A DNA stretch of 64,000 nt from Ophiosphaerella korrae (lineage: Eukaryota; Ascomycota; Dothideomycetes; Pleosporales; Phaeosphaeriaceae), in NCBI GenBank assembly GCA_028456385.1, contig JALNQF010000013.1:124001-188000 (forward strand), given 5' to 3'. This document shows, in pieces, positions 571 through 37,581 of this stretch (its first letter is position 1; every line of letters starts with the position of its first letter). The notes below the pieces were generated by a model, which searched no databases, was not told the origin of the DNA, and saw nothing but the letters and a program-made list of their open reading frames with translations. The position numbers were made by a program, and so were the translations under genes.

Positions 571-638
571 GGGCCCAGAACCGGGACACTCGAGGGGCCT
601 GCTAGCAATTCACCACACAGGGTCCTTGTTTTGGGCCC
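571..638. promoter_or_regulatory. Paired CArG-like GGNCC-N6/7-GGNCC elements between divergent genes
   Basis: GGGCCCAGAACCGGGAC (571-587) and GGGTCCTTGTTTTGGGCCC (620-638) lie between the starts at 485 (minus) and 722 (plus), 84-151 bp from each. Both have CC and GG flanking a 6-7 nt core inside outer GG/CC arms. The same shape recurs upstream of at least seven other genes in this window. Function is inferred from recurrence and position. Confidence 0.55.
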
Positions 639-721
639 TCGCAGAACAATAAATTCGGAAAGGCGGGAAGCTCTCTTACTTCTAATTTGAAACGATTATA
701 ACCTAACGCAACTGTACTATA

Positions 722-1780
722 ATGTTGCTTCATATTTTTGTAATCATCTCGCTTTCGTTAGCAACTTTTGCCAGATGCGCTCCATTTCCGGACACAGGGA
801 TAGCAGGCGGCGGACTTCCAAACAGTCCTCTACCAGTTGAAATATCTGTCGGCGGGGCAAAAGATGTACAACTAACACAGTTTCTTGAGAATCTGGAAGT
901 CTCGTTCTTCTCTGCCGCCTCCACAAACCTCTCAATCTGGGGTAACGAAGGGTATTCCAACAATTCTTTAGGTACCGTGAATAGAATTGCCACAGTAAGT
1001 TGACTTTCCTGCGAAATGTGCCACATAGCTAAGTCCTAGCAGCAAGAAGAAGTCCACCTGGAGACACTTACAACCATTCTTAATACCTACAACGTACCCT
1101 TGATTCCACCTTGTAATTACTCATTTCCAGTCTCCTCGGCGAAGGAGTTCTTCGACGTAGCTGACTTTATCGGCTCGGTCGGTATCTCAGCGACCATTGG
1201 CTTGTCTCAACGTCTTGCACTTTCGGACCCTTCAGTCGCGAAATTGATTTCTTCGATCCTCTCAGTTGAATCCCGCCATGATGCATTTTTCCGCGACGTT
1301 CAGGAGAGAGAGCCAAATCCAGGGACTTTTGATACTAGTATCGGTGCTATTTGGGCGTACAACATTGCGTTGTCCTTCATCGTCCCAGGATCTTGTCCAG
1401 TCCAGCTTCCAATCCCAGTACTTCCGGGACTTACAGTGGCTCAGGTAATAATGAGCCAAGCAACTCTCGCTTCATATGCAAATAGTACGATTAACGCTAA
1501 TAGCAAGAGTGGAGACACATTTAAAGAATTCACCTGGGATCCAACTCAGATGCCTTTCGTTGTTCAAGGCGATAAACAGCTTCTAGCTGGTTGGGTGAAC
1601 CAAGCCAATAAGCCCGTGTATACGCCATTGACAAATATATCGAGGGGGAGGGGTACAGCTAAGATGCCAAAGGGACTGAGTGGTATTACATACGTTGCTA
1701 TAACTACCGAGCAGTTTACGGACGTTGACGATCTTGCTCGTGGTACCATAGCCGGTCCAGCCGTAGTAGTTGTATCCTAA
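722..1780 (+). CDS. Secreted ferritin-like domain protein (Rds1-like)
   Basis: Two exons, 722-994 and 1043-1780, give 336 residues; the intron is 48 bp (GTAAGT...TAGCAG), and an alternative acceptor 3 bp upstream would add one Gln. A signal peptide (residues 1-19) precedes a ferritin-like four-helix region. The segment QFLENLEVSFFSAA, then QEEVHLETL across the splice and SVESRHDAFFR, gives the E...ExxH / ExxH spacing expected of metal-binding ferritin-like domains. Fungal proteins of this kind are secreted or wall-associated and linked to stress or sexual development (Rds1 type). The exact reaction is not known. The C-terminal half is rich in G, T and V. Two CArG-like elements lie upstream. 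Confidence 0.8.
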
Positions 1781-2217
1781 GAAGATAGTCATAATTACAA
1801 TGTTAGGTCAGGAAGCCTAGGAAATTATAATTACCAATATTGAGTTGAAATTTTGAAGCCGACTCTAGCGTCTTGAATATTGTCTGTGACAAGGACTTTT
1901 GGTAATCAGCAAATATGATTGCTTTGCCTTTCTCCCACTGCGAGCATAGACGGTTGATTAAGTGCTGCTTGTAGTCTTCCCCCTTTATGATGCTTTGGAA
2001 AAATCGTATTCGCCAGGCAATTTCTCACGATGCCGAACACCGCTCTACAGCGCAATCTCCACTGAGTTTACCACCAATCACGTTGCCCCAATAGGGCAAA
2101 TCGGAAGATTAGAAATCCGATACGGACATTATTGCGTCGATCTGGGTTAAAACACCAAGTATCCAGGCCTATATAGTATAACCCAGGTTTGATTTGGAGC
2201 TGAAGAATTGTCTCAGC
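1781..2217. other. Intergenic, nothing supported
   Basis: No reading frame with coding character, repeat or RNA gene is seen between the ferritin-like gene and the minus-strand remnant that ends at 2218. Confidence 0.5.
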
Positions 2218-2748
2218 CTACCCTCTCTGATCAGGAATTCCTATTGCAAACGCCAGAGTAAAAATCTTTCTGTATATTTGGTCCGCTTCCTTCTTTTCCT
2301 CTAACATCTCTTCCCGGCAGAGTTCCACAAGATCAAACTGTAACAAATAGGCGGTTTTAATTATTTCTGATACATCTTCTTGATCTTCGACAGCTTGTCT
2401 TTGTTAGTGAAGTAGCATCGTTCGCTCCTCTTCGAGTTCTTCGGGCGTTGGCAGTGGTGCGTCCAATTCGAGTCTCCTAGATCGAAGCGAGTAAACCTTG
2501 TAGGAGGAGGATACCATTCATCTGTTATTCCTTTCGTGATAATATCTGCAGCAATGTTGCGACAGAGCCGGTCCGGCCTCATGGAATTTATCTTCTCGTA
2601 AAGCTTAACGGGATAGAACTGTATCCCCAAAATTATTCGATTATTTGCGGGGAGATTGCAATTAGCAAAGTTAGAAACCTTTTCCTCCAGTTCTCGTCGT
2701 ACAAGGTCTAGTTCATTAGATGGAAAAAAGATAAAGCAATTAAACTGT
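2218..2748 (-). pseudogene. Broken charged, coiled-coil-like gene
   Basis: Three stretches in one consistent gene sense can be joined. The first exon follows an acceptor CTAACAG near 2749 (NELDLVRRELEEKVSNF...). An intron of about 39 bp (GTATCC...ATCTAG, about 2474-2512) then restores frame into LELDAPLPTPEELEEERTML. An in-frame TAA at 2404-2406 follows, after which coding character continues (VSEIIKTAYLLQFDLVELCR, EEKKEADQIYRKIF) to TAG at 2218. The TAA would be a Gln codon if one C had become T. No initiator ATG is clear upstream, where a TATA-like TATATAAGG lies near 2910. The product was probably a small coiled-coil protein of unknown role. Confidence 0.45.
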
Positions 2749-2759
2749 TAGGTGAGACC

Positions 2760-3620
2760 TTCCGTTGGAACCGATCATTTATGACGATATACGTATTCCT
2801 AGACTCACAAGAATTGTATTAGATGGTGATGGGCTTAAGAAGCAATTAATAGAAAACCGATTTCTATGAAGACGAGAGTGAGAGTCTGCTGAACAACCTT
2901 ATATACTTCGTGAAGCGTCTAATTCACCCAGGGTCAATAATAAGCAGCCTATCTATGTTACGATTTGTTATGAATGAAGAGTAAAGAGGCTGAGTTGATC
3001 ATGCATTTCCAGTAGACCGTGCTTAGTGTTGGTTCTCCTTTACAGTCTGCTTGACGTCATTTATATGCCATGCAGCCACTTTTCATGCGAAACCTGTACA
3101 GCCTGCGAACGAAGGGGCTTTGGGACTACGACTAGACGCTGCGCCCTTCTCACCCGGGCATGGTCGTGGTAAACAGATCGTCAGTTACACCATCATTGCT
3201 CAGGTAATATGACGATAAACCGGCTTTGCGTTGCTTTCCCCTGATTCTTGCCCGTTATGTTCGTTTACTATCCGTGGCTTAGCATGGCAGTCGTCCTCTT
3301 CTTCAGCATTGCATATGGGTCAAGCCTGGCTAAAACACGAACTGTCGCCCTCATGGTCATACTGCTTCAACTCAGCCTCTCGCCAGAGAAGCAAGAGGCG
3401 GTGCAACACTAATCCCGTAAGCATAGAATCCACTAGAATACTTCTGTGCTTGATTTTAGCCCTCAGTTATCCAACTGAGATGTGAGAACGGAAAGGATCG
3501 TCTCCTGCATCGCCCCTTTGGCGACATGCGCATTAAATGTAAAGTCTGACTTGCAGAGGCGCTGTCATGCCGTTCCAGGATAATGGATCGGATCATATGA
3601 GCGCCGAGCTGTAGGTCCAA
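2760..3620. other. Intergenic, 5' region of minus-strand remnant and upstream of bZIP
   Basis: The segment at about 2825-2870 resembles the first exon of the broken gene below it (ATTAATTGCTTCTTAAGCCC versus TTTAATTGCTTTATC...), suggesting a local duplication. Nothing else is recognisable between 2900 and 3620. Confidence 0.35.
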
Positions 3621-3630
3621 GAACCTCGAG

Positions 3631-3638
3631 TATAAAAA
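3631..3638 (+). promoter_or_regulatory. TATA box of the bZIP gene
   Basis: TATAAAAA lies 69 bp upstream of the bZIP start codon at 3707, a normal distance for a fungal TATA element. Confidence 0.5.
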
Positions 3639-3706
3639 GCCGCTACTTTGCGTCCTGGAGATCAATCAGCACAGTTCTTTCTCGATTCATCATCTATTCA
3701 TATAAA

Positions 3707-4394
3707 ATGGAGCACTATGCAACCTCTACTACCTCTGAGAGTGCATTAGACACGTAAGTCCTGTTTACAACAGCGTAAGATAGCACTGACCTTTAGCAGT
3801 ATGGACTTCAAATTTCTGGATCCGAATCAATACATTTCTCCAGAGCTTTTCAGCCTCGGCATGATCCCAACAGTCGACACTCTCGAGGCGTACTGCCATT
3901 ATGGAGACCTCGCAGAGTACTCATTTGAACCCTATATTGCAACAGCATCTGCAGCCATTACAGAAAATCAGCCCAGTCATTCTATGAGTCCTCTCATGCA
4001 GCCTAGCACAGGCTTATCATTTTCCACAAGTGGTGAATTCTTTCTTGGAGAGATTTCAACCATCACTGATAACGCGGCTTCAGAGGAAGAGAAGCGTAAA
4101 AGACGGCGCGAAAGTAACAGACGGGCTGCGTAGGTTCTGCAATCCGCGATTGTTCAACCTGTAAGCACTGACATCAGCCACAGAGCTAAGTGTCGTGAGA
4201 AGAAACAAGCTCAAATAGAAGGACTACAGCATATGGTTGAAACCCTGCTTAAACGACAGTCTGAGCTTGAGAGACAAGTGCATGTCTTTCAAGAAGATAT
4301 AAAGGCCCTTACTCTACAGAATGAAATGATAACACAGGAGAACGCTAGGTTATGCTTAGAGATAGATAAGGCTACTTGGGATTCGTATGCGTAG
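3707..4394 (+). CDS. bZIP transcription factor
   Basis: Three exons: 3707-3753, 3797-4129, 4184-4394 (introns 43 and 54 bp, CAG/TAG acceptors), about 196 residues. The second splice joins SNRRA to AAKCREKK and creates an exact basic-region signature N-x2-A-A-x2-C-R directly after a KRKRRRE nuclear-localisation stretch. Leucine/hydrophobic heptads follow (IEGLQHMVETLLKRQSELE, then VHVFQEDIKALTLQNEM). The N-terminal half is acidic and hydroxyl-rich, as in activation regions. It is short compared with most Yap or AtfA type factors. It stands at the left end of a series of small coiled-coil genes and may represent the founding type. Its target genes are unknown. Confidence 0.88.
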
Positions 4395-4512
4395 GGATGG
4401 GTTATTTGAAAACAGTAACGTTGATATGTCATAACGAAAATCTTTAAATCTATGCAAATCCTGTCCTGCCAAGTGGCCAGCTGTGACTGGAGAAGTGAAG
4501 TGGACGATGGAT

Positions 4513-4923
4513 TTAAGTATAGTCCAAGCTCAACCTTTCCTGTCGGCGAATAGGTAAACGGAAGGAAGCCGTTGGAGCGACCTGTAATCTCATCTTTCGT
4601 CGTGCCATTTCCCAACGCCAGGCCTCCGCCTTGAGCAGTTTGTCGAGGCTCCTAGCCACAGCATCGCAGTCTCCATAGAACTCATGTACTCTCACGTCAC
4701 TTTCTTCTCTGTCCTTAGAAATCAGCCCATGGCCCATAGTGGCGCCCCACAAACCTTCGACATTGATTGTGTGGTCATTGGGAACATCTTCGGTTTGGCG
4801 CCCTATCTGCACCGCATAAACTGGCCTCATGAATCCAATCTTTATCATTTCCGGGTACTTTACCTCAGGGTAGGCTTCCGCTAGGGAGAACCAGGTGCTG
4901 CCGCCGTCCTGCCGCTGCAGCAC
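4513..4923 (-). pseudogene. Hypothetical protein, probably frameshifted near its start
   Basis: An open frame of about 136 codons on the minus strand has coding character (EAYPEVKYPEMIKIGFMRPV, then a W-rich basic end), but it opens with GTG and has a stop just upstream. A nearby ATG at about 4938 starts MNSNSSAAAAG in another frame, so a single indel in the GGACGGCGGCAGC stretch would join the two. Family not recognised. The 3' end at 4513 is 118 bp beyond the convergent bZIP stop. Confidence 0.35.
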
Positions 4924-5022
4924 TTGAGTTGCTATTCATAGACGGTTTACTTTGCTCTGACAACACTCTTGAAATAAACCGTTACTTTTCAAAAAGCATA
5001 ACCGGGAACTCAGAAACAGCCG

Positions 5023-5035
5023 CCCCCCCCCCCCC
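5023..5035. repeat. Poly-C tract
   Basis: Thirteen consecutive C residues in intergenic DNA. This is a homopolymer prone to length error. Confidence 0.7.
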
Positions 5036-5108
5036 TCGGGCCCCCTTAACAAGAACTCTAAAAACATTGCAAATCCTACACTATTGACCGTGTACTTTTG
5101 TCAGATAT

Positions 5109-5240
5109 AATGCTGAAATGCGTTTATCACAGATTGCTAATTGAGATAGTGTATATTGATGGTTGTTTTTGTTGTTCGACTATGTTCTCTGTTCTCTTGC
5201 CTTTTATGCTTCCGGAGCTTCCGCCATATCGGCCCTAGGT
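5109..5240. repeat. Dispersed repeat copy 1 (partner at 7069)
   Basis: Starts TGCTGAAATGC and ends with a TCTCTTGCCTTTTATGCTTC / AGCTTCCGCCATATCGGC block. The same start and end blocks occur at about 7069-7205 with a more diverged middle. Both copies are non-coding and could be relic LTR or MITE ends. Confidence 0.5.
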
Positions 5241-5383
5241 ACTATGTCGCTAACCCCTGACACTGCCTGGTGGAGCAGCGCGCATCTAACAACTTTCCTA
5301 CATAACGGAATAAATTTTAGGTAAATTAGTTATTTTATATTTCTGTACGAATGGTAGGAAATCTGGTAACAGTCTAAATATTC

Positions 5384-6226
5384 TTATAGGCTCATCGCTG
5401 AACAGAAAATAGAGAGAAAGTTCACCGCCGGAACAAAATCTAGCTCTGTCTGCCTTTTTATCTTATCATCAAGCTCTTTTAGACCTAAAGCCGTCAAATA
5501 CCCGCCTTTCAGTTGGTATCCTCCTGTGCACATCCGCAGGACGTTGAGTTTGGACATACGCACAATGTCCAAGGGTGAAATCATTACCTCGTCCCGTATC
5601 CTGTCGTTGAAACATGGGGCGTAGAGCCTTAGATCGATAGTTTTGTCTGGAACAGATATCTTGTGCCACGTACCTTTCATTATTCCGCCGGATGTCCTCA
5701 ATGGTGCGCCAAACGCCATAAGAAATGTTTTATCTGAACCCGGCTCCATCCCCATTTTGATCTGTCGTAGCTGGTATTTGTCTTTGAAGACCCGATTTCT
5801 ACTGGGCTTTCCTGTGGTACTGAACTTGACCATCCGGTTGAGGGTTGTTGTTGTTTTGTTGCGGATGGGGAAAGTCCCAATAAGGTAAATTTTGAGCCTT
5901 CTCCTTCCATGTTCTTTCAAATACTCTTCTGTATGGTGCAGCCGTTGTGTAAGAGCTGGTACGTCACTACCAAGTAATAGTAGCTTCATCCCTTCCTGTA
6001 ATAGCTTTTCCATCTCAGATACGTTCCAAATTAAATCACGGACTGGATTTAGAATTTTTTCCCGGTCTGTTTGTAAAATACAATCTACCACCAAACTGAG
6101 CTTCGCAGCATCATAAGCTGAGATGTACTGTAAAATAGCCTCCCAAATTTCATAAGGTAATGAGAATAGAGTAACATTCGATTTCTTTTGATAACAGCGT
6201 GGTGAGAACAATCGATTTGTTTGCAT
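5384..6226 (-). CDS. F-box protein
   Basis: Single exon, 280 residues, starting at ATG 6226 (MQTNRLFS). The frame extends 14 codons further up without an ATG, so this start is preferred. Residues about 17-42 (LFSLPYEIWEAILQYISAYD) are a clear F-box, the segment that docks on Skp1 in SCF ubiquitin ligases. The rest (coiled helix, then a beta-rich region) gives no recognised substrate-binding repeat. It is flanked upstream by the CArG-like element at 6310-6327, 84 bp from the start. It is the only plain ubiquitin-pathway gene in the coiled-coil cluster. Confidence 0.75.
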   Translation of the reverse strand: MQTNRLFSPRCYQKKSNVTLFSLPYEIWEAILQYISAYDAAKLSLVVDCILQTDREKILNPVRDLIWNVSEMEKLLQEGMKLLLLGSDVPALTQRLHHTEEYLKEHGRRRLKIYLIGTFPIRNKTTTTLNRMVKFSTTGKPSRNRVFKDKYQLRQIKMGMEPGSDKTFLMAFGAPLRTSGGIMKGTWHKISVPDKTIDLRLYAPCFNDRIRDEVMISPLDIVRMSKLNVLRMCTGGYQLKGGYLTALGLKELDDKIKRQTELDFVPAVNFLSIFCSAMSL

Positions 6227-6309
6227 GATGTGTGGTATACTAGAAACGGAGAAAAGGCGGGGATACAAATAATAAGTTACATTTCTTGACTCGCGTCTCT
6301 ACTTGAGAA

Positions 6310-6327
6310 GGGGACCAAAAATGGCAC
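6310..6327. promoter_or_regulatory. CArG-like element upstream of the F-box gene
   Basis: GGGGACCAAAAATGGCAC contains CC-AAAAAT-GG, a formal CArG box, 84 bp upstream of the F-box start on the minus strand. Confidence 0.5.
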
Positions 6328-6466
6328 TCAGCGGTATAACATTATCGCCATATCCTGGTGTCCTCTAATTGGCTGTAACTAGCTGGGGTTCAATCCGACC
6401 CATGATGCACAGCTACGAATATAGAAAGCCAGGTTATTAAGCAACCAATCAAGTGATTGAATGTTT

Positions 6467-6487
6467 GGGGGACCAAAAATGGTCCCC
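6467..6487. promoter_or_regulatory. Palindromic CArG-like element
   Basis: GGGGACCAAAAATGGTCCCC (6468-6487) has 7-bp arms that are exact inverted repeats around AAAAAT, and contains CC-AAAAAT-GG. It lies 87 bp upstream of the coiled-coil gene at 6574. It is the most symmetric copy of the recurring element. Confidence 0.6.
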
Positions 6488-6573
6488 TTAGGATACTCAG
6501 TTCAAATACATCTGGCGATGGAATACAAGATTGCTTAAACAGTTACAGTACTTCGCCGCAACAGGGAGAGACC

Positions 6574-6905
6574 ATGGAGAGTAGGAAAATGCGTCAGAGT
6601 AATATCGACCGTGATCAGTGGAGAGTATTATGCCGTGAGCGGCTATCAAAGCATATTCGTAAGTCAACAGAAAACTACATGAAGTTATAGCTCATACCAT
6701 TGAAGAAAATGTCAAGCTACGAAAGGAGATGGAAACATGGAAGGAAAAGGCAACCACAGAATCTCAGCGAGTGAAGCTTGCAGAAGAACAGCTTTGCAAG
6801 ATGTGCGAGAATAATCAGCAGCTTCAAGAGCATGTAGATAGATATGCTGCTAGTACAGAGTACTTGAAAGACATGTTTGCGAAGTGCTCCTTAGGGTTAG
6901 GTTAG
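6574..6905 (+). CDS. Small coiled-coil protein
   Basis: Exons 6574-6658 and 6691-6905 give 99 residues. The intron would be only 32 bp (GTAAGT...TTATAG), very short, but it restores frame exactly and both sites are normal. After a basic N-terminus (RDQWRVLCRERLSKHI) the protein is one long amphipathic helix with EENVKLRKEMETWKEK, AEEQLCKMCENNQQLQEHVD and further heptads. No named domain is seen. The promoter holds a perfect palindromic CArG-like element. It belongs by style to the coiled-coil set between 2 and 29 kb. Role unknown; dimerisation is likely. Confidence 0.6.
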
Positions 6906-7577: not shown

Positions 7578-7630
7578 GGGCCCACCCAGAACTGGACCAT
7601 GATCTACTACGGGAACCAAAAACGGGACCC
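7578..7630. promoter_or_regulatory. Orphan pair of CArG-like elements
   Basis: GGGCCCACCCAGAACTGGAC (7578-7597) and GGGAACCAAAAACGGGACCC (7611-7630) each contain a CC-N6-GG core (CC-AGAACT-GG, CC-AAAAAC-GG). No intact gene follows: the first ATGs downstream meet stops within about 10 codons, and a Copia relic begins further on. This could be a promoter left without its gene. Confidence 0.4.
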
Positions 7631-13240: not shown

Positions 13241-14078
13241 TTTCTCTTGTCAAGGCGATTGTAGCAGTGGTATGAAAGCCATAGTGAGATTTCTAGAAAG
13301 GTTTATGAACTGAAAGGGAAGTTTTTTCTTGCGAAGCTCGAAGTTTGATTTATTCGTACGAGCAATCGGCTAATTGACCTCGCGACTTTATAGCTGACCT
13401 CGTCTTACCTCAGTTATAAATACAGCAGTCGTCCGGCCATATATGGTGCATAAGGCAATCAATGGTAAGAATATGTCAAGACGTCTGTTGGGCTGACAAC
13501 TTCGTTTAGTGCCTTCACGTGGGCCAGGATGCCCTGGATCACGCTGCAGATACGACTCACAGCCTCAAAAAGCAAGGGCCTACTGTAACCTTAAATAGCG
13601 CCACCTCCGCATCTTTCGTCCTATTCTCCGATTGGTCAATTGATCCATCAACCTTGCCTTAGCCTTTTCCCGGTCATGCCGTGTCCCGATTTTGGGTTTT
13701 GGCAGTGCCATTGCTACCCGGATCTTCTGCCATTCGACCCTTGCTTATGAGAGGCTTTAAGCAAGGCCGCCAACAAAAATGCTTCCCCCTTTTGACAACT
13801 GATCCTGCACCGTCAGCGTAACAGCCTGGATCCGACTTCTGATGTGACTTGGTAGTACTTTATTCACAAATCTTTCTCACTCACAAATAAGGGGCAATAT
13901 ATCCCTAGATGTCGCAATAATATACTTGCCTTCTGGTGGTGATGAACTTTTAGGTAGAGAACGTTTGAAATTTGACTATAAACGTGCGTCTAATTACAAA
14001 CGACTTGCTCCCCAAGCCCGCAGGGGACGGACCAATCCAGCGTCATATGATAGCACTCCGCTTGGTCAGCATTCCTCC
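13241..14078. other. Intergenic with a lone CArG-like site
   Basis: GTCCCGATTTTGGGTT at 13683-13698 contains CC-GATTTT-GG but has no intact gene within 350 bp. A short frame at 13926-14171 lacks an ATG start and is not supported. Confidence 0.35.
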
Positions 14079-14840
14079 TTAAAGGAGGCTTACAATAGCA
14101 ACATGAAACACAAGAAACGGAAGCAGCCCAGGTACGTTAATGTGCCCATGCGACGTACCGTCACCTGTTAAGACTGTAAGTGCCGTTCGAGGAGAGGAAG
14201 ACGAATTGACGAAAGAGCCATTGGTCATGTTATAACCAGCTGTCCAGTTTGATCGAGGAGTAAAGCTACTCGATGCGTTATTGCGCTGGCTTGGGGCGCC
14301 TGTGACTTCTGGTGCCAAATTACTATGCAGACCGCCAACTTCCGTAGTACTTGCTGCAGTAGAGGTGTAGCCGGATTCCATACCGAGCGGCAACGCTGAG
14401 GAGCCAGTCCGTGTGAGGACTACAGTCACAGTCCCAACAAAATTGCTGACCTGAATTTGTATGGTAGCTTTCATGGTACTAGAGCTGTTCATAATTTGGG
14501 TCGGGCCTGGGCAAGCCCCCTGCGCCGTCGTGCTCATTGCAACGGTCTGCGCATTACCCGGCACCGAACTCTGACCCATCACCGTTCCAAACACGGTCGG
14601 CGCGGAAATTAGGCTGACAGTTGTAGCATTTATTACCGTTCTGATGCTTGATTCAACTGTTAAAGGAGTTGAAAATCGTTGAAAAGTTGTCTCGATGCTG
14701 CCGGTCTTAGAAACTTGTCCGATAAATGGTCCAAAGGTAGCGAAAGTTGCTTTGGGTGTCACGTTCGAACAAGCTACCTGCGCAGGTAGCAGGCTTAAGC
14801 CAAGGGCGAAAAAAAGTGGAAATATCATAAAGGACCTCAT
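14079..14840 (-). CDS. Secreted, probably GPI-anchored Ser/Thr-rich protein
   Basis: Single exon, 253 residues, starting at ATG 14840. A signal peptide (MRSFMIFPLFFALGLSLLPA) is followed by a beta-rich, Thr/Ser/Val-rich body, several N-x-S/T sites, a Ser/Asn-rich stalk and a hydrophobic C-terminus (PGLLPFLVFHVAIVSLL) after a small-residue region. This is the layout of a GPI-anchored wall protein. No enzyme domain is recognised. It shares a 195-bp divergent promoter with the coiled-coil gene at 15036, with two CArG-like elements between them. Confidence 0.7.
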   Translation of the reverse strand: MRSFMIFPLFFALGLSLLPAQVACSNVTPKATFATFGPFIGQVSKTGSIETTFQRFSTPLTVESSIRTVINATTVSLISAPTVFGTVMGQSSVPGNAQTVAMSTTAQGACPGPTQIMNSSSTMKATIQIQVSNFVGTVTVVLTRTGSSALPLGMESGYTSTAASTTEVGGLHSNLAPEVTGAPSQRNNASSSFTPRSNWTAGYNMTNGSFVNSSSSPRTALTVLTGDGTSHGHINVPGLLPFLVFHVAIVSLL

Positions 14841-14910: not shown

Positions 14911-14954
14911 GGGCCCGGAATCGGTCTTACGGAAAGGGTCCAGAATCAGGCACC
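14911..14954. promoter_or_regulatory. Paired CArG-like elements in a divergent promoter
   Basis: GGGCCCGGAATCGGTC (14911-14926) and GGGTCCAGAATCAGGCACC (14936-14954) lie 71 bp from the minus start at 14840 and 82 bp from the plus start at 15036. Spacing between the two cores is about 25 bp. Confidence 0.6.
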
Positions 14955-15035: not shown

Positions 15036-15401
15036 ATGGATTCAGATTCAGATTACGACAGAGAGCTTCCAAACTCAGATCCGCCAACCCCGATCGAGGC
15101 TGGTTCCTTTGATTTGCTGACCCAAAGGGTCGAGGAGTTTCAGCGAATGCATCAGCTCGAGACAATAGAGAGGCTTACAATCGAAAATAACACAATGCAG
15201 AATGCCATTGTGCAATACCAAAAGCTTTGGTGTTCAACCCTTCAATTGCTTGAACAGGCGCTTGAAGCTTTGCAATCATTGCAGAGAGCATTTGAAAACT
15301 GCGTCAGTGAAGACATTGCTGCAGAAAAAGATTGGTTAGAATTTTGGGGGATTAGAAAGGAAAATCAGAGTCAGCAATATAGTCCTGCAGGTTGGATATA
15401 A
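15036..15401 (+). CDS. Small coiled-coil protein, family A
   Basis: Single exon, 121 residues, from ATG 15036 (MDSDSDYDREL). An acidic N-terminus with DPPTP is followed by one long helix containing ERLTIENNTMQNAI, QYQKLWCSTLQLLEQALEAL and SLQRAFENC. The EN...YQ...LLE...SLQ.A spacing matches the protein at 21657 and the broken copy at about 25.6 kb, so these three form a family. No named domain. The shared promoter with the GPI-type gene contains two CArG-like elements. Confidence 0.65.
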   Translation: MDSDSDYDRELPNSDPPTPIEAGSFDLLTQRVEEFQRMHQLETIERLTIENNTMQNAIVQYQKLWCSTLQLLEQALEALQSLQRAFENCVSEDIAAEKDWLEFWGIRKENQSQQYSPAGWI

Positions 15402-15496: not shown

Positions 15497-16488
15497 TCAG
15501 TGAAAGCCCTCTAGTTCAGTTGCGGTGCTCCGGGATAGTTCTGACCTTGATGCAGGATGACCCTTTGGAGCCACTAGCGGCTTCTCCACGAATGGATATT
15601 TGTAGAAGGTCCGTAGAGACTTTTTCCGCTGGGGTGTGGGGGAGACGGGGCTGACGAGTTCATTCCGGACGCTGGGGGATGCTGGCTCAAAATCCATTGC
15701 GACCGGGACCGTCTGTTCCCCAATGGACATGGAATCCTCCTCTGTGTTCTTCGGGCCATTTCTCTGCCTAGCTCGCCTCGCAACGAATATCAGGGCAGCG
15801 GTGAGCACTATTGCTAGTAGGATGCCGATGACTATACCGGCAATGGCACCGCCTGATACCTTCTGGCTCTTCGAGTTCTTAGACGGGGGAAACGTTAGAT
15901 TCGGCTGCAAGCCTGGACTAAAGCCTTCTGCTGGCCAAGACTGGCCTGGAAGGAGCTGATAGTCTGCGTTGATTGCTGCAGATTTTTGAGTGTCTATAGA
16001 CTGGCCTTCGGCAGGATTGATCACCCCAATCATTCCGTTCGGATGGCATGAGTCGAGTGCTGTACAATAGAACCATATAGGGAGGCGATCTCCAATAGTT
16101 ATATTGAAAGTCGGGATCTGTAACGGCATTAGTTATCTTCAGCAAGTAGGAATGTAGGGAAGAATACATCTCCATTAGTTGAGACTGTTTGCGTGAGGAA
16201 ATTTTCAGAGTGAAATCCTGTTCGCCCAGGATGGATCAACTCATAGGGTACGCAAGGGTTGCAATGACCGTTCCCGCACGCTTCAGATACCGTATATTCT
16301 CCGCGAACCACCGAGTGGTTAGTCGGGAAGAACTCAAAGACGACCAGGTCCCCAACACCCGCAGTTGTCGTTGTCGGATCAAACATGTTACTACCTCCAA
16401 ACCCAACTCTTATTTTGTGGACCTGGGCTGCGTCTACAAGCACTACAGCTAGAAGCAGAAGTAAGGACCGGCCACAAGAATGAGTCAT
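15497..16488 (-). CDS. Cupredoxin-domain membrane-anchored surface protein
   Basis: Exons 16488-16168 and 16117-15497 (minus), intron 50 bp (GTATTC...TTACAG), 313 residues. A signal peptide precedes one cupredoxin domain (VHKIRVGFGG, DLVVFEFFPTNHSVV, then IPTFNITIGDRLPIWFYC and SCHPNGMIGVINP). The His, Cys, His and Met of a type 1 copper site are all present (TNH, FYC, CHPNGM). A single transmembrane helix (AIAGIVIGILLAIVLTAALI) and a basic, Ser/Pro-rich cytoplasmic tail follow. This is the fungal extracellular cupredoxin/serine-rich type found on plant- and lichen-associated fungi; substrate unknown. Confidence 0.85.
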
Positions 16489-17223
16489 GGTGAAAAACGA
16501 CAAAAGGAGTGACTTGAGATTCTGTAAGTTTGTTGATGCCAGCGATAAATGAAAGAGGAAAGTAATGCCTTTTGTCCTGCACAGAATGCTGCGAGCTTTG
16601 CGAGGGTCAGGTGGGACCCGGTTTTGGGAACCTTGCTGCGGGGCGGCGCAGATAGCTTGAATGTTCGGAGGCGGTGCCACTCGTGGACCGGCATCTTAGC
16701 TCACTGGGTGCAATCCTACTAAGGGTTTCTATTATCGACTTCTGCCTACAGTTCGTTTATTCCATATCTATTCGCACTTGAGCCTTAGTATATATATCTG
16801 GACCCTGCATTATCAGACTCGTGAAATACTCCAGCGGAAATCACTTATATTGTAATCACAACTACGAACGTCGCTGTAATGTATTTTTTGTTACATTTAC
16901 TCTAAGGCAATAGGCATACAAAAGCACAAAGACCAGAACACTCAGCAATGAGGACATTTGTCGCGAGAATTATCGGAATAGGCCACAGCCAAATCGAACT
17001 CTAAGAGAGAAATCCAGCCAAGAGGTACACTAGCATCCAGACATCAAGTGAAATATTCACTTCGAAAACTTGTTCGCTTAAACTTCATGCGAAATTCTTA
17101 TCAATGAGTCAAACGCAACACTGGAAATTGTCATTCAAGATTCGCAGAACAATTGCCTGATTAAGTTGTTGGATGATAAAGCAAATTGTTTCTATTTGAT
17201 TATCTTTGGCCGGTTATAGGAAT
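16489..17223. other. Intergenic, nothing supported
   Basis: Promoter side of the cupredoxin gene. No coding frame or repeat is evident. Confidence 0.4.
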
Positions 17224-17239
17224 GGCCCAATTCTGGGCC
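17224..17239. promoter_or_regulatory. CArG-like palindrome without an evident target
   Basis: GGCCCAATTCTGGGCC has 6-bp perfect arms and a CC-AATTCT-GG core. A TATA-like AAATATAG follows on the plus strand, then an ATG at 17277 with a frame of only 42 codons that runs antisense to the 3' end of the coiled-coil gene. Confidence 0.45.
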
Positions 17240-20495: not shown

Positions 20496-20523
20496 AGGGG
20501 GTTCGAAACCGGGCCCTCAAGGG
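20496..20523. promoter_or_regulatory. Degenerate GGNCC-type element
   Basis: GGGGGTTCGAAACCGGGCCC followed by TCAAGGG has the outer GGNCC arms but an atypical core. It lies about 200 bp upstream of the coiled-coil gene at 20727. Confidence 0.3.
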
Positions 20524-20726: not shown

Positions 20727-21307
20727 ATGTCTTGTCCATGGTCAAGCTCCACACAACAGGTCGAAAACTCGCTAGATACAACTCTAACCAGCTACCTATC
20801 GTTCGACCTTCTCGATCACCTGGATCCAGTTGAACCAGTACTTGATATCACGACTGACACACTCAGTATGCCAAGCGATACAAACTTCGACTGGTCTAGC
20901 GGTATTGATCCTACCTTCCTTTTACTACCTGAACCGGATGATTTCGTCCTCGAAACACCCCTAGCAAATGACAGTACTTCCGGCAAACCTGCAGGCGACG
21001 AGCAAAGTCTTAGAGAAGCCGTCCTGCAGCTTGGACACAGCATGGAAGCGAGGCTAGCGAAGATAGAAGACAGCATAGGAATGATGGATCAGAGACTGAC
21101 AAAAGTCGAAGAAGCTAAAGAAACTCAGGATATTGAGTATGTTGATACTACTCTGTTGGGCATGTAAACTCTCGCTAACAATACGAAAGAATTCAACAAC
21201 GGAAGGAGCAAATTCGGGCAGAATCGAAGAAATTACTCGATGACCTTCGGGAGTACCACAATCTCGCGAATTTGACTGCTAGGCGATTGGTTGAGCCAGT
21301 TAAATAG
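20727..21307 (+). CDS. Coiled-coil protein with acidic N-terminus
   Basis: Exons 20727-21136 and 21190-21307 (53-bp intron, GTATGT donor, CTAAC branch site, AAG acceptor), 175 residues. The first 90 residues are acidic/hydroxyl-rich and look like an activation region (SFDLLDHLDPVEPVLDITTD). A helix then runs to the end (SLREAVLQLGHSMEARLAKI, DQRLTKVEEAKE, and after the splice QQRKEQIRAESKKLLDDLRE). The layout resembles the bZIP at 3707 without its basic region. Function unknown. Confidence 0.7.
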
Positions 21308-21467: not shown

Positions 21468-21523
21468 GGGCCCTGAAAATGGGACGAGATTCTCGCAAAG
21501 TGCTTTGAGGGTCCAGAATCGGG
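21468..21523. promoter_or_regulatory. Paired CArG-like elements
   Basis: GGGCCCTGAAAATGGGAC (21468-21485) and GGGTCCAGAATCGGG (21509-21523) lie 134-190 bp upstream of the coiled-coil gene at 21657. The second has an exact CC-AGAATC-GG core. Confidence 0.6.
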
Positions 21524-21656
21524 TAGCCTTTGTAGCATAAAGCAGTAGTGCAACAGTATAACTATTCGATATCGAACTTGCCCTCAATCCACGAATATGT
21601 ACAATTCTTGTCGCTAAGGAAATTCACCATCAGATCCAGAAAATTATCACAGCATC

Positions 21657-22010
21657 ATGCTAGGCTACAACAAGCATAGGGTTCGTCCCACAGCCAGTAC
21701 TGACATATCCCCAAAGAGCAATGCTACGCAGACTACCCGCAAGCAGAGCGGCCAACCCGCGAGTGATCCTCCCTCAAGAAGACCAGGAAAGGCAAAGAAA
21801 ATGCCTACTCCAGATATTTCCATCATAGAACAACAAAGGGAATGGGAGAATAGTCAACTCAGGAAAGAACTTCAGTACCAACGAAGAAAGCATGGCGCCA
21901 GCATGTATTTACTTGAAGAGGTTAGACTTGTAGTCAAATCTCTTCAGGAAGCACTTGTGAATTTCGAGAAGCTGAACTCAGAATTCGAAGACGAAGTAAC
22001 GGATGAGTGA
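21657..22010 (+). CDS. Small coiled-coil protein, family A
   Basis: Single exon, 117 residues, from ATG 21657. A basic, Pro/Ser-rich N-terminus (SRRPGKAKKMPTPD) precedes a helix: EWENSQLRKELQYQ, KHGASMYLLEEVRLVVKSLQ, EALVNFEKLNSEFEDE. It aligns end to end with the broken gene at about 25.6 kb (shared EN-LR-EL, GAS-Y, EV, FEDE-type spacing) and more loosely with the protein at 15036. Two CArG-like elements sit upstream. The basic N-terminus suggests a nuclear protein; role unknown. Confidence 0.7.
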   Translation: MLGYNKHRVRPTASTDISPKSNATQTTRKQSGQPASDPPSRRPGKAKKMPTPDISIIEQQREWENSQLRKELQYQRRKHGASMYLLEEVRLVVKSLQEALVNFEKLNSEFEDEVTDE

Positions 22011-22376: not shown

Positions 22377-22413
22377 GGGCCCACAATCAGGACCTTGCGA
22401 CCAAAATCGGGTT
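22377..22413. promoter_or_regulatory. Paired CArG-like elements
   Basis: GGGCCCACAATCAGGACC (22377-22394) and GCGACCAAAATCGGGTT (22397-22413) lie 174-210 bp upstream of the coiled-coil gene at 22587. Confidence 0.55.
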
Positions 22414-22586: not shown

Positions 22587-23200
22587 ATGGCGAATCTTAT
22601 GCATGGGCAACCGGTAAGATGATAATCTGTGGAGCCGAGAAACAACGTACTGATATGCACTGGTAGTCTATGATTATCCCGCCACCGAGTCCAATGGTAC
22701 AGGATGTTCTTCAAAAGCTCAACTCGATTGGAGCCGACTTCATTTGGATGATTGCCGTATATCAAGAACAAATGCGTATCAACAAGGGTTTGAAGGATGA
22801 CATCACCAACGCCTCGGCCTCTTACGAACTCTTACGCCAGGCAAACAACCTTGCAGAACAGAAGATCACGTCGCTTGAGTCTCAACTATACAATAGCCGT
22901 GACGATTCAAGTGATAGGTATACGGAATTCTCTTCTGAAAGCTTCACTGAAGAACAGATGAAGGACCAGCAAGAAGAGATATCTTATCTCAAATCGGAAA
23001 ACCGTAGGATCCAACTTGAACATGAGGCTGAAATGTCTAGAATGGCTGAAGCAACTCGAAAGTACGAAGAGGCGTTGGCACGCGCCAGTGACATGGTTAT
23101 TACCAGTGCAAAAAGGATCGCAGAGTTTGAAGCTCTAAGGGAATCTGAAGTGGTTGATCAGAATTGCAATTCTATAAAAAGCGAGCATACAGAGGCTTGA
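22587..23200 (+). CDS. Coiled-coil protein
   Basis: Exons 22587-22613 and 22667-23200 (53-bp intron, GTAAGA...GGTAG), 186 residues, starting MANLMHGQP. The body is almost entirely coiled coil: MVQDVLQKLNSIGADFIWMI, ELLRQANNLAEQKITSLESQ, QQEEISYLKSENRRIQLEHE, MAEATRKYEEALARASDM. A Ser/Asp break lies near residue 100. No named domain. It follows the gene at 21657 and precedes a kinase-like fragment, all on the plus strand. Upstream are two CArG-like elements. Confidence 0.72.
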
Positions 23201-32500: not shown

Positions 32501-32995
32501 TAGCGCAACTTTGGGTCTCTGCAAGCAGCGAGTATAATGCGGTAGGGCTTAAGCGGACCGAGATAAGTACAACCTATTCCATGAGCTTCACATTCAGCTT
32601 CAGTTCGATCGACATACCGGTATTCCCAACCCCATGACTGCGAACAGGTAGGTTATCAACCCAATATCGCTTTCCATCAGTAAGGCAATCGCCCTTCCCT
32701 TCACAACCTCGCCTTCTGTTAAAGTTGGCATTTGGGCTTCGGAGATATTCCCTAGGATCCAGGACTGGCAACGAAGAATCATGTTACGAAATATTTCGAA
32801 GGTGACTGCAATAGGTTTTCCTAACGCTGGGCAAATAGAGGGATTCTCCAGTTGCAGACAGAAAAGGTGTCCGGCATTGTTGGCAGCGTTGAAGTCGATT
32901 AAATCGAGGGTGGTTTTGATCTTTTCGCTTGGTTGTGGCTGCTGCACAGTTTCAAAAAAAGGGAGAAGAAAATTTGAATGCTGAGAAGAATTCAT
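29564..32995 (-). CDS. NRPS-like A-T-R reductase (adenylation, carrier, thioester reductase)
   Basis: Exons 32995-32618, 32573-30015, 29965-29564 (minus), introns 44 and 49 bp, 1112 residues. Order: adenylation domain with the AMP-binding motif LILHSSGTTGMPKAV (about 214-228) and later the SGYGSTELG motif; carrier domain with LGMDS around 655, whose Ser takes phosphopantetheine; NAD(P)-binding reductase starting VLLTGGSGALGCHLLAQL at about 745. Such enzymes load a carboxylic or amino acid, hold it as a thioester and release it as aldehyde or alcohol; no condensation domain is present. Start is the ATG at 32995. The substrate cannot be read from sequence. The neighbouring alcohol dehydrogenase could act on its product. 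Confidence 0.9.
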
Positions 32996-33080
32996 ATTGT
33001 AGAACAACTTTGATGAACCTATTGGAAGAGGCAGGATGTCTGTAATGATGAGATGAGAAATGTATCACATACCCTTCATC

Positions 33081-33413
33081 TTATCTATCGGTGAGTTCGT
33101 GCGCATGGGTCCGGATTTCTCTAGCTACGCTGCTTAATCTTACCCATCCTAGGATCACGTTGAAATTCGCCCAGGTGGTAAGGTAGACCCCAGTATGGCA
33201 AGGATCCGGAAGCGAGCTGAAGCGCGCGCGGTTAAAAAGGATATCATCCATGCCACATCGGATCACCGGGATGTTATCCAGGACACACCGATCAAAGGGG
33301 CGTGGGGCACGCGCTACGAGGTCCAATAGATGTTGGTGCCCTTTCAATACACAATAGCTATCGGATGCAATGATCTCCCAGTTTCCATCGTAGCGAGCAA
33401 CGCTGCAAGCCAC
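33081..33413 (-). other. Possible coding remnant upstream of the NRPS-like gene
   Basis: An open minus-strand frame of 110 codons (YDGNWEIIASDSYCVLKGHQ, ARAPRPFDRCVLDNIPVIRC) has coding character but opens at GTG with no ATG in frame. It sits in the promoter region of the NRPS-like gene. An ATCACGTTGAAA word lies at 33154. Family not recognised. Confidence 0.3.
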
Positions 33414-33418
33414 CAGCT

Positions 33419-33649
33419 ATGCCCACTCCAAAACCTCCGTACACCAAAGAAGAGGAGCAATTGCTCATTCGACTCAAGAACCTTGGCCTCGACTGGTACG
33501 AGATTACATCACAATACAATCAAGACGTACCGCCGGAAAGACGGAGGACTGAAGATGGACTAAAGAACAAGTATGAGCGAATGAAGCCCAAGAATTCGGT
33601 AGGAGATTTGAATCACAATGTTATGACCATGCGCTAATTTTTGCAGTGA
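33419..33649 (+). CDS. Mini Myb/SANT-like protein (60 residues)
   Basis: Exon 33419-33598, then a 48-bp intron (GTAGGA...TTTGCAG) followed directly by TGA at 33647, so the second exon contributes only the stop. The protein (YTKEEEQLLIRLKNLGLDWY, then RRRTEDGLKNKYERMK) is a single Myb/SANT-like three-helix unit and little else. If the intron were retained, the protein would gain 12 residues. Relatives: 25906-26332 and the frameshifted 26638. Lies between the NRPS-like gene and the alcohol dehydrogenase. A role as local regulator is a guess. Confidence 0.6.
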
Positions 33650-33735
33650 CGAGCATGCCAGGAGTGGATGGGGTTTGCCTTATTGTGATATGATGTAGTG
33701 GAGGAGAACGGATTACATATGTATTATGAGCTGAG

Positions 33736-34783
33736 CTAGTCTTCAGGCGTCAGAACAATGCGATACCGAATAGTGCCTAGAGTCATCAAGTCAAATCCTT
33801 TGTTTATCCCATCAGCAGTTAGAGGAAGCCTTTGTACAACTGGCCTCACACCATCCTGAGCAGCATTCTCTAGCATCTCCTCGCAGCAACAACGTGGCGC
33901 AATGACAGATCCTTCAATAGCCAGAGCTTGAGTAACCAAAGGAAGCGAAGGTATTTCAATTGCATTATCTAGAATACTGAGGAAGAAGATTCGTCCTCTC
34001 GGAGCCATAAGACTCACTAGATAGTGCCAATCTGCGAAGAATCAGCCCCGGATAGAGTAGAAAATCTATATCCTTACCCGCTGGGAAACTCGTGGTTACC
34101 AACAGAGTATGCAATGGCTCTCCTTGGTATCCAGTCTTGGAGGAATCTTTTACGAAGTGAAATTCCTCCGCACCGAACTGAATTGCGTCATCGCCTTTTC
34201 CTTCTGTTTTGGAGAAGACTGACACATTACAGCCTTGGTTCACAGCGAATTGTATTGCGAGATGCCCGAGGCCTCCAAGGCCGAAAACCCCAACTCTGTT
34301 GCCCAGCGAAACCCCAGCGCTCTTAAGGGCGAAGTATACGGTGCTTCCCGCACACATGAGAGGCGCGGCCTCAACGTCAGTCAAGCCGTCTGGTAACTTG
34401 AACAAGAAAGTTTCTTTCCAAATTGCTTGAGACGCGAATGCCCCTTGGTCAAGATCCGATTCTCCGTAGATTTTCCGGTCTGGGCAGAAGATTTCGTCCT
34501 CTGAGAGGCATTTTTGACAGGTGCCGCAGCTGCTGTGTTGGTATCCCCATCCCACCCGGTCTCCTTTGCGTAAGGAGCGAACGTTTGGCCCAAGTTCTTC
34601 AACCACGCCAACACCTTCATGCCCAAGGACCATGTCGTGGTAGCGAAAATGGTTGTCAGTTCCACATAATCCGGCAGCTGTAATGGAGAGCAGAACTTCA
34701 TCGTCAACTAACGGGGGTCTAATTGTGGTGCTCTTGTAGACAGAACCATTTGCCGAGCCCTTATAGACGGTATATTCGAACAT
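33736..34783 (-). CDS. Zinc-dependent alcohol dehydrogenase (CAD/YahK-like)
   Basis: Exons 34783-34078 and 34031-33736 (minus), 46-bp intron, 333 residues. The splice restores PAD-WHYLVSLMAPRG. Catalytic zinc ligands are in GLCGTDNHFR and GHEGVGVV. The structural zinc cysteines are in CGTCQKCLSEDEIFC. The nucleotide fold has GVFGLGGLGHLAIQFA. This places it in the medium-chain, NADP(H)-using cinnamyl-alcohol-dehydrogenase-like group that interconverts aldehydes and alcohols in the cytosol. It is next to the NRPS-like reductase, which releases aldehydes. Upstream lies a 102-bp tandem array of ATCACGTTG sites. Confidence 0.9.
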
Positions 34784-34940
34784 GTTTAATCGGAGAGATT
34801 TAGTTATTGAGTGAAGAGACGTCAGAAAGAGTATAATTGTTATGATCCTTTTCAAATGGGATGACTCTGTGCCGTTGATAATGTGAACCCATGCCATTCC
34901 GATGCAAAGCGGTACGTCAGAGATTAGCAAGGGTATATAT

Positions 34941-35350
34941 TTGGTATTATACATCACGTTGGAAGTGGCTTATCATCACGTTGAAGCTGACTAACTTACT
35001 CGTCTTGCGCTACAACCCCAGTCTTATCAACATCACGTTGATTTGGTATTATACATCACGTTGGAAGTGGCTTATCATCACGTTGAAGCTGACTAACTTA
35101 CTCGTCTTGCGCTACAACCCCAGTCTTATCAACATCACGTTGATTTGGTATTATACATCACGTTGGAAGTGGCTTATCATCACGTTGAAGCTGACTAACT
35201 TACTCGTCTTGCGCTACAACCCTAGTCTTATCAACATCACGTTGATTTGGTATTATACATCACGCTGGAAGTGGCTTATCATCACGTTGAAGCTGACTAA
35301 CTTACTCGCCTTGCGCTACAACCCCAGTCTTATCAACATCACGCTGATTT
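34941..35350. repeat. Tandem array, four 102-bp units, each with three ATCACGTTG words
   Basis: Four near-identical 102-bp units (starts about 34941, 35043, 35145, 35247). Each contains ATCACGTTGGAAG, ATCACGTTGAAGC and ATCACGTTGATTT. The fourth unit has two words changed to ATCACGCTG. The array lies 158-570 bp upstream of the alcohol dehydrogenase start. Because 102 is a multiple of three, a long plus-strand frame runs through it, but this is a by-product. The regular motif density suggests a protein-binding array. Confidence 0.85.
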
Positions 35351-35359
35351 GGGGTTATC

Positions 35360-36090
35360 ACACTAAGTTCGACCTGCATCACGGCATCAAGACGTTGGAG
35401 TGACTGTAGGTAGGATAACTAATCCCTATTGGTATGATAAGGGCATGGTTTGAGAGCTCGAAGGGACGGAACTCTAGCTCATGGAGACACACATAGAGGT
35501 CTACCGTTTTGGATACTTCCTGCCGAACTTTTGCACTAGTAAGAAGATCCGTGCAGACTATTACGCTCATAATGAGAACAGTTTTTCCTTTTAGTGAAAT
35601 GCAAGACTCACTAGAAACTATAACCTTGCCTTTTGTGTTGGCTGAGTATTGCTAGCAGTAGCTTTTCGATATACATTTCGTGGTACTCTTGGTGAATGCG
35701 AGTTCCTGTTATTAGCCCTGGTCTTCACGGAAATACACCGCCACGTATAAATTGATGAATATTCAAAATCTTTCTTGATTAGCTTGGATTCGAGGAGCTA
35801 TGGGGTATGACCTTTCAAGTATCACTTTCAAGAGCCTATTCATATAGTCCGCAACCCAAGCAGACAGGACGAAGAAGTAAGATTATCCGTAGAGTAGACA
35901 GCTGGCAGGAATAAGATGGTGTCCGAGAGATTTGAGAGAGCAACTACAGCGTCAACTGATACCACTCAGGAGCCTCCATTATGACCTAAATTTTGCATCA
36001 GAAAGCTTTGAAGAGCAAGAGCAAGGGACTATGTATTTATAATTTCTACAGTCAGACATACGCAGCTCCCAGCGTTTCATCATTCGGAAG
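35360..36090. other. Intergenic, nothing supported
   Basis: No gene, repeat or RNA gene recognised between the tandem array and the CArG-like element at 36094. Confidence 0.4.
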
Positions 36091-36093
36091 GGA

Positions 36094-36112
36094 GGGCACC
36101 GAAAATGGTCCC
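36094..36112. promoter_or_regulatory. CArG-like element upstream of the MADS-like gene
   Basis: GGGCACCGAAAATGGTCCC with a CC-GAAAAT-GG core, 97 bp upstream of the start at 36209. Confidence 0.6.
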
Positions 36113-36208
36113 TCGAGGCGGTGCTTCCTTCCAGAAGTCGAAGAAATTTAAGGCCCTTGGAGTATAAGTTCTCCGAAGCACTCATTGGCATAGGCTAACA
36201 ACCCCAAC

Positions 36209-36713
36209 ATGCCTTCTCAAAAACCCAGCCTTCGTAAAAGACTCAACAAAAAGAAGAAAAGGCGATTTGGACCTTTGAGAGGTAAATGCCGAGAGTACGC
36301 AGAGCTTCCTGGAGTTGAGTTGGCGCTCTTTATTGCCTTCGAGAAAATGGACAGGGACAATAAAACGAGAACAGAGTTTTATTCTCTTCGATCTAAGCGG
36401 AATATCCCCTGGCTAAGAAACATAGATGGTATTGTAAGTAGTACACCATCGTAGTTCCATTTGCCTTGGCTGACTGCTGTAGCTATCGGACGACATGAAT
36501 AAGAACGAGTTGCTGGATGATATTGGGAGCGACATTGAGATGCCTTGCGAAGAGCGAGATGATGAAATGGAAGGGGGTGAGAAGAATACCCTTGTTGTAG
36601 GTAACCAATGCCTGCAGAGACTGGATTTGCTGGGTTCCACTCGAAATGGACCAGTATTTCCGCCTCTACCTGACCTTGACCTCGACTTGATTTGCGATAT
36701 CATGTCGTTCTAG
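36209..36713 (+). CDS. Small MADS-box-like protein
   Basis: Exons 36209-36433 and 36483-36713 (49-bp intron, GTAAGT...TGTAG), 151 residues. The N-terminal 70 residues follow the MADS plan: a basic helix (RKRLNKKKKRRFGPLRGKCR EYAELPG), a hydrophobic strand VELALFIAF, and FYSLRSKRNIPWL as second strand. It lacks the usual MGR start and has an insertion (EKMDRDNKTR) between strands. The C-terminal half is acidic and ends in PPLPDLDLDLICDIM, which could activate transcription. Canonical MADS proteins bind CC(A/T)6GG; its own promoter has such a site. Confidence 0.6.
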
Positions 36714-36858
36714 ATTGCGAGAATATTAGCATCAATGCATATAATTCTTTAAGTATTTAAAAACGCAAGAATGTTTCGCGAATATCTTTTGATGATTTTC
36801 ATTTCTTCGCCCAGTAATTGTAGGATACTAACAGCCTAGAGAATACTATCCGTGTAAC

Positions 36859-37383
36859 TTATGTCCCTCGATTCTTTCGTTGCATCACATACATCAACTC
36901 TGCCATGGTCGGCTTCGTGGAAAGATCAACCCGAGGTGGTTCTTCAAGGATAGTACGAAGTCGACGCGGCCTTTCCGTTCCAAAGTACTCGCATTTCGCC
37001 AGCTCGCCAGGTAATTCGATCCGACCCGTGGCTGAGCTACCTTCAGGCAGCTCAGCAACCTTATTCTGTGGTACCGCTTTTGGGAGAGACTCGCCATAGT
37101 GGTAATGGTTCACATTAATGACAAGATTGTCTAGCTTGAGCATATCCTTTACAAGACCTTTGAGTCTTTCGCACCCTGGTCTCCGGCAAATGATTTGATC
37201 CAAAGGATCAACCACATCTATGTGCGTACGCGGTCTTCTGCTTTTGCCGCAGCGAGAGCATACCGGTAGGTATACGAGTTGTTCGCTTTCTTGGTGCTTG
37301 CTATCACCTCTCACTTTATCTTTTCCCAAAAGTAGAGGATGATCTCGATAGTACGAGGTAGATGAACGGCTTTTTCGACTCAT
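36859..37383 (-). CDS. Zinc-ribbon-like hypothetical protein
   Basis: Single exon, 174 residues, from ATG 37383. A basic Ser-rich start is followed by a four-cysteine metal site (VCSRCGKSRRPRTH, then ICRRPGCERL), i.e. C-x2-C...C-x4-C. The rest is polar with a basic FGTERPRRLRTILEEPPRVD stretch. It may bind zinc and nucleic acid or protein. It is divergent from the patatin gene, and three CArG-like elements lie between the two starts. Family not recognised. Confidence 0.6.
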   Translation of the reverse strand: MSRKSRSSTSYYRDHPLLLGKDKVRGDSKHQESEQLVYLPVCSRCGKSRRPRTHIDVVDPLDQIICRRPGCERLKGLVKDMLKLDNLVINVNHYHYGESLPKAVPQNKVAELPEGSSATGRIELPGELAKCEYFGTERPRRLRTILEEPPRVDLSTKPTMAELMYVMQRKNRGT

Positions 37384-37487
37384 TCTGCTTGCAATGGGAA
37401 CGCAGTTTCGAATTGGTGTCAGATTTCACATTCTAATATGTAAGCTAACTTACATTGTGAACGCTGTTTCTTTATGGAAGCAATACA

Positions 37488-37581
37488 GGGGGTCCAGATT
37501 CTGGCTCCCTCAGGAAATACTGAAATCGGGCTTCAGTCCACTTAGGAAGACTGTTTAACATGGAGCCCGATTCCTGGGCCC
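37488..37581. promoter_or_regulatory. CArG-like elements in the divergent promoter of the patatin gene
   Basis: GGGGGTCCAGATTCTGGCTC (37488-37507), a half-site CTGAAATCGGGC near 37520, and GGAGCCCGATTCCTGGGCCC (37562-37581), followed at once by a TATA box (GTGTATATAAG). They lie 63-156 bp from the plus start at 37644 and 105 bp or more from the minus start at 37383. Confidence 0.6.

Follow-up and report, generated by a model that had tools for sequence, protein, structure and literature searches.

What is the short palindrome that recurs through the first 38 kb of this stretch of Ophiosphaerella korrae DNA, and what kind of protein would read it? The stretch, hereafter the window, comprises 64,000 bases (124001-188000) of a 494,052-base contig, C35, in a 63 Mb genome of 974 contigs. 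The palindrome consists of GGNCC, six to eight mostly A-rich bases (core near NRAAWYN) and a second GGNCC. A preliminary description of the window had listed it at seventeen coordinates and read it as the CArG box of a MADS-factor regulon, and our results support that interpretation in part: the element recurs in many promoters, and its assignment to MADS proteins is not supported. We think it probable, at roughly 0.65 and judging from sequence, that the palindrome is the binding site of one regulator, not of the MADS class, of accessory-island genes.

The recurrence itself is real. All seventeen listed coordinates hold something like the proposed form, with uneven quality: within 12 bp of them, GGNCC-N6/7-GGNCC fits exactly at four (620, 6467, 17224 and 22377), with one mismatch at nine, with two at three (7578, 13683 and 21509) and with three at one (22397), and the best fit for 13683 lies at 13672 and is different from the site intended. 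Random positions in the window fit with no or one mismatch in 45 of 3000 draws. A spacer preference, for which no trained matrix is needed, is evident when pairs of GGNCC half-sites with at most one mismatch in the eight letters are counted at spacers of 0 to 14: in window positions 1-38000 the spacers 6, 7 and 8 occur 19, 30 and 19 times and the others 3-12 times, a count in which a site with GGG or CCC runs may score at two adjacent spacers. No such peak is seen in positions 38001-64000 (4, 7 and 4) or in 190 kb of background (41, 54 and 43, against 36-55 at other spacers), the latter made up of 19 of 20 loci, with locus L014 left out because it holds a cluster of sites itself.

A first comparison of words and dyads ranked base composition on top. 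A further test used a scoring matrix trained away from the contig. It was built from 32 of the 45 genome-wide matches to a 17-base consensus, leaving out rows from C35, copies of a dispersed block termed family A, and identical 17-mers; we call sites of at least 11 bits stronger and those of at least 14 bits strong, of which the extracted loci hold 45. The matrix finds 11 stronger sites in positions 1-38000 and none in 38001-64000, and in 200 kb of background it finds 10, four of them from L014. Sixty Markov simulations gave a mean of 0.87 sites and a maximum of 4, and none of 200 column-permuted matrices reached 11. Genome-wide, the consensus has 45 matches and its reversed form 2, and related patterns likewise exceed their reversed forms (19 to 5, 23 to 5 and 42 to 8). 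These matrix controls and the spacer peak together support the earlier proposal of a common cis-element in many unrelated promoters. Exact matches to GGNCC-N6/7-GGNCC number five in the window, including a lone GGNCC-N7-GGNCC at 57731-57747, beyond the span of the listed coordinates and in the half otherwise without strong sites; its score is printed as 11.0 bits and falls narrowly below the threshold.

The sites are also paired and clustered. Of the 36 sites on C35 that score 9 bits or more, 20 have another no further than 100 bp away (random placement: mean 3.97, maximum 15 in 2000 trials), and paired copies lie about 20-160 bp apart. Across the genome, 45 of the 104 unique exact sites are within 10 kb of a further one, where uniform placement gives a mean of 3.35; this clustering arises partly because some promoters were copied, and with repeat copies dropped the figure is 26 of 84. 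Site-bearing islands lie on C35, C304, C255, C146, C68, C468 and other contigs. The background locus L014 (C2:540001-550000) looks like an island as well, with four sites in its positions 5894-6444 together with a palindrome, CCGCCATTTTCGGCGG, that is common to C242. Repeat-induced point mutation (RIP) was rejected as the cause of the sites because RIP indices in the window are ordinary.

Most of the stronger window sites lie close to genes: in hand-made gene models, 8 of the 11 have an inferred start codon about 60-260 bp downstream, and several of the intergenic stretches that hold them are bidirectional promoters. The first pair, at 572-588 and 621-637 (11.7 and 13.0 bits; no strand is assigned to it, nor to the pairs beginning at 6312, 14911 and 37491), stands 87 and 136 bp upstream of a minus-strand gene with a Pfam match to DUF7492 (ATG at 485). 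A second pair, at 6312 and 6470 (6312-6486; 11.7 and 17.3 bits), lies between a minus-strand F-box gene, whose F-box match is under the Pfam cut-off (ATG near 6226), and a plus-strand coiled-coil gene (ATG at 6574). The pair at 14911-14953 (8.9 bits at 14911, 15.3 at 14937) is likewise flanked by a secreted-looking, Ser/Thr-rich open reading frame (ORF) on the minus strand (ATG near 14840) and a coiled-coil gene on the plus strand (ATG at 15036).

Further along, a plus-strand site at 20500-20516 (12.6 bits) is 211 bp upstream of an acidic ORF (ATG near 20727) that had no match in the Pfam scan. The plus-strand pair at 21469 and 21510 (21469-21526; 10.7 and 9.5 bits) lies 131-188 bp upstream of a coiled-coil ATG at 21657, and a plus-strand site at 22378 (17.2 bits), accompanied by a weak copy with three mismatches at 22398 (together 22378-22413), precedes the ATG at 22587 of a further coiled-coil gene. 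That plus-strand gene (22587-23200) has a short first exon, an intron and a main exon from about 22670, and our hand model of it gives an N-terminus identical to that of a 186-residue relative, P0121. The last pair, at 37491 and 37564 (37491-37580; 15.3 and 9.9 bits), is 63-153 bp upstream of a plus-strand gene with RING and patatin matches under the Pfam cut-offs (ATG at 37644); a minus-strand ORF with its ATG near 37383 begins about 108 bp away on the other side. On hand models, the F-box and patatin genes and four coiled-coil genes (6574, 15036, 21657 and 22587) do have the upstream sites described earlier.

The DUF7492 promoters provide a comparison among related genes. The domain has eight matches at seven loci in the genome, to which a remnant on C68 is added, and the upstream DNA of five of the eight copies was examined. 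The copies on C35, C68 and C468 keep the sites in upstream DNA that is otherwise hardly alignable: the C68 remnant, which was recognised by its similarity to the window gene, has sites 88 and 153 bp before its ATG, and the C468 copy has one at 169 bp. Neither the intact C434 copy nor the degraded C745 copy, both among the five, has a site upstream. A database search with the coiled-coil protein of 22587-23200 returned 11 relatives, and those with a named organism come from PMI808, Verruconis gallopava, Patellaria atrata and the lichen fungus Sticta canariensis. A distribution this patchy could reflect either moving cargo or vertical loss. Phaeosphaeriaceae sp. PMI808 has counterparts of two window proteins, 93% (for an ORF that reads through an intron) and 99% identical, and the scattered substitutions suggest that this member of the Pleosporales is a close relative.

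We propose that one sequence-specific regulator, probably a dimer and probably other than a MADS protein, contacts the two GGNCC half-sites. It would act through sites that often come as two copies about 20-160 bp apart and some 60-260 bp upstream of the start codon, and would control otherwise unrelated genes of what appear to be accessory islands, often from common bidirectional promoters; whether up or down, the genes would be expected to be expressed together. Fungal transcription-factor regulons, such as those of zinc-cluster regulators, have palindromic sites in the promoters of gene clusters. The arrangement here resembles such regulons in its short palindromic dyad, its several copies per promoter, its unrelated neighbouring genes and its often bidirectional promoters, and differs in that the genes do not form one pathway and the islands are spread over many contigs. 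We know of no fungal factor with the half-site GGNCC and a spacer of six to eight.

Several points weigh against this proposal. For three of the 11 stronger window sites no nearby start is clear: those at 7613-7629 (plus strand, 17.1 bits) and 36096-36112 (plus strand, 12.0 bits), to which no gene start is assigned, and that at 17223-17239 (minus strand, 16.7 bits), where the nearest inferred start downstream, of a minus-strand ORF near 16488, is 735 bp off. Start codons and gene models were placed by hand throughout, and the analysis covers one genome. When the A-rich core is left out of the pattern, GGNCC-N6-GGNCC shows hardly any genome-wide excess (379 matches against 323 for the reversed control, each strand), so the half-sites alone are insufficient to define the element. 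Copied promoters (family A and a second block, R1) supply part of the genome-wide count. The background stretches were hand-picked, some of them near earlier exact matches and many richer in G+C than the window, and site scores on loci L025-L029 are partly circular, because these loci were extracted for their sites and some were used to train the matrix.

The copied promoters raise an alternative, namely that the sites travel as passengers in dispersed repeats or duplicated segments, or are recombinase-binding repeats of a transposon, and have no regulatory role. Family A, the block at 6290-6600 of the window, has nine matches including itself, the eight other, dispersed copies being 76-91% identical. 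R1, a block of about 350 bp (L027:5035-5391) that holds a site pair, matches 43 pieces of the genome at 70-100% identity, and 15 of these stop at query position 357; this common endpoint may mark where a mobile element, or else a copied promoter, ends. R1 contains repeated GCTCA words, and on C35, C304, C113 and C223 a DUF7924 domain is found about 1.9-2.8 kb from it. Both palindromes are present in eight of the nine R1 copies examined, 55-57 bp apart in six of the nine, and the tails differ between copies, a pattern of pairing that fits a passenger and a regulatory role alike. What makes the passenger explanation unlikely is that all window sites except 6312 and 6470 lie outside R1 and family A, that the window promoters have no blastn match among one another, that the DUF7492 promoters retain little besides the sites, and that most of the stronger window sites are close upstream of inferred starts. 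Two other motif-bearing stretches, L025:3442-3717 and L028:5606-5805, contain similar short, degenerate, coding-like repeats rich in CCGTGGAG.

The preliminary description pointed to MADS factors; on that explanation, the sites would be CArG boxes of a fungal SRF/Mcm1-type or RlmA-type protein. The likeness is genuine, since the boxes bound by SRF, Mcm1/McmA and RlmA also have CC and GG flanking an A-rich core; CC-N6-GG occurs within 28 of the 45 strong sites, whose cores are A-rich, and the genome does contain MADS matches. We nevertheless find it improbable that MADS proteins account for the element. CC(A/T)6GG, which had been cited as the site class of MADS factors, is present in only 5 of the 45 strong sites, and CCYWWWNNGG, the form of an Mcm1-type site, in none of them in either orientation. 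The palindrome tolerates G or C in its core, dyad spacers of 6, 7 and 8 are all enriched with a maximum at 7, and the outer GG and CC arms equal the inner bases in information, with the reservation that both were fixed in advance in the patterns searched. The MADS domain PF00319 has three exon matches in the genome, on C334 and C445 only; there is none in the window, where a MADS-like gene had been reported.

The inverted repeat could also act as a hairpin, either as an RNA element in 5' leaders or terminators or as a DNA cruciform, and some sites, for example that at 6470, are perfect palindromes able to fold. The variable bases of the two half-sites are complementary in 18 of 77 sites, where 20.6 are expected after shuffling, so that selection for pairing is not evident at these sites, and a protein site with a free N fits better than a hairpin. 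In three promoters (those of the window DUF7492 gene, the window patatin-RING gene and the C468 DUF7492 copy) a TATA-like stretch follows the sites, which therefore probably lie outside the transcript; a hairpin role is thus very improbable. A fixed TATA position beside the sites was considered as a general feature and rejected, being present in a few promoters and not in general. That the palindromes are chance matches selected by eye, as might be suspected when the form first given is exact at only 4 of 17 listed sites, has a negligible probability given the off-contig matrix, the permuted matrices, the simulations and the spacer scan.

Sites had been described as absent near the nonribosomal peptide synthetase-like, alcohol dehydrogenase and aminotransferase genes of the window. 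The description is correct at a threshold of 11 bits and a distance of 1 kb, with the limits that an 8.6-bit match at 52838 stands beside the aminotransferase ORF and that the site at 36096 is about 1.1 kb from the dehydrogenase ORF. The start region of this last ORF (33968-34957, minus strand) is overlapped by four copies of a 102-bp tandem unit (34939-35352) with about three ATCACGTTG words each, an array that could be a second, distinct regulatory one. Other repeats in the window include a 21-bp unit in eight perfect copies at 59345-59512, read as TEDGELV in an ORF; two related, coding-looking segments at 42769-43146 and 46451-46831, about 51-54% identical, the second within a kinase-like ORF; and a repeat present in two copies of 90-92% identity, at about 41.5-42.3 kb and 48.8-49.2 kb.

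Are the islands connected with Starships, the giant transposons of fungi? The list of Starship hallmarks is said to go back to Gluck-Thaler in 2022. A DUF3435 captain and cargo that includes DUF3723, ferric reductase and patatin-like genes are among the Starship features given in PMC12134995. Sites do precede genes of these classes: the captain on C501 has one about 173 bp before its ATG (18.7 bits), a captain picked for this check on account of an exact site known beforehand in its neighbourhood, and the captain on C261 has one at 255 bp (16.7 bits). On C304 a site lies about 104 bp before a DUF3723 gene (12.2 bits) and others precede a ferric reductase gene, 93-130 bp ahead of its inferred start, and in the window a pair precedes the patatin-RING gene. 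Upstream stretches were examined at 10 of 28 captain loci, the start not being located in all; among the others, C37 has 12.6 bits, C912 has 8.5 bits, and C5, C364, C278, C209, C107 and C144 have no site, so that sites of at least 11 bits are absent from seven of the ten. The three DUF3723 upstream stretches examined, of 22 loci, give 12.2 bits on C304, 9.7 bits on C55 and no site on C183. DUF3435 and DUF3723 copies on C656, C402, C241, C138, C845 and C62 contain many TAG and TAA stops, which would fit older elements hit by repeat-induced point mutation.

The general link between the motif and Starships is weak. Two of the 28 captain loci lie within 1.5 kb of an exact site (0.18 expected, P 0.015), as does one of the 22 DUF3723 loci (0.14 expected, P 0.13), and neither class shows an excess of sites at 10 or 25 kb. 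C35 itself has no DUF3435 captain (PF11917) among the 45 genome matches (49 candidates scored), and no DUF3723 match. Given the weak general association, the seven captains of ten without a site and the missing C35 captain, we refrain from classing the window as a Starship or the palindrome as a Starship motif; a Starship-wide regulon is possible and unproven. In PMC12153272, a motif, CTACGGAGTA, is reported for the direct repeat of the Starship Tardis in Aspergillus fumigatus; like our palindrome it is short, over-represented and discussed with Starships and a possible zinc-cluster site, but its sequence differs and its place is the direct repeat at the insertion site, and it is not presented there as a promoter motif. 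Promoters of a cargo cluster in a Starship respond to formaldehyde, according to PMC11623301. A promoter motif of the present kind is not described in the accessible portions of PMC12134995, PMC12289983, PMC12153272, PMC12506042, PMC11623301 and PMC11905480, and we found no report of one in what was available of the Starship literature on motifs, palindromes, promoters, cargo and regulators.

A more specific idea, which we put forward tentatively and regard as doubtful, is that islands of mobile origin, some Starships included, carry a private circuit, in which an island-encoded or dedicated regulator would read the paired GGNCC palindrome and switch captains (DUF3435), DUF3723, ferric reductase, patatin-RING, DUF7492 and orphan coiled-coil genes together. 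If so, captured genes would join the element's programme on acquiring a site pair. Lying before island genes and some captains, the palindrome offers a concrete handle on how captains and cargo may be regulated in giant fungal transposons and accessory islands.

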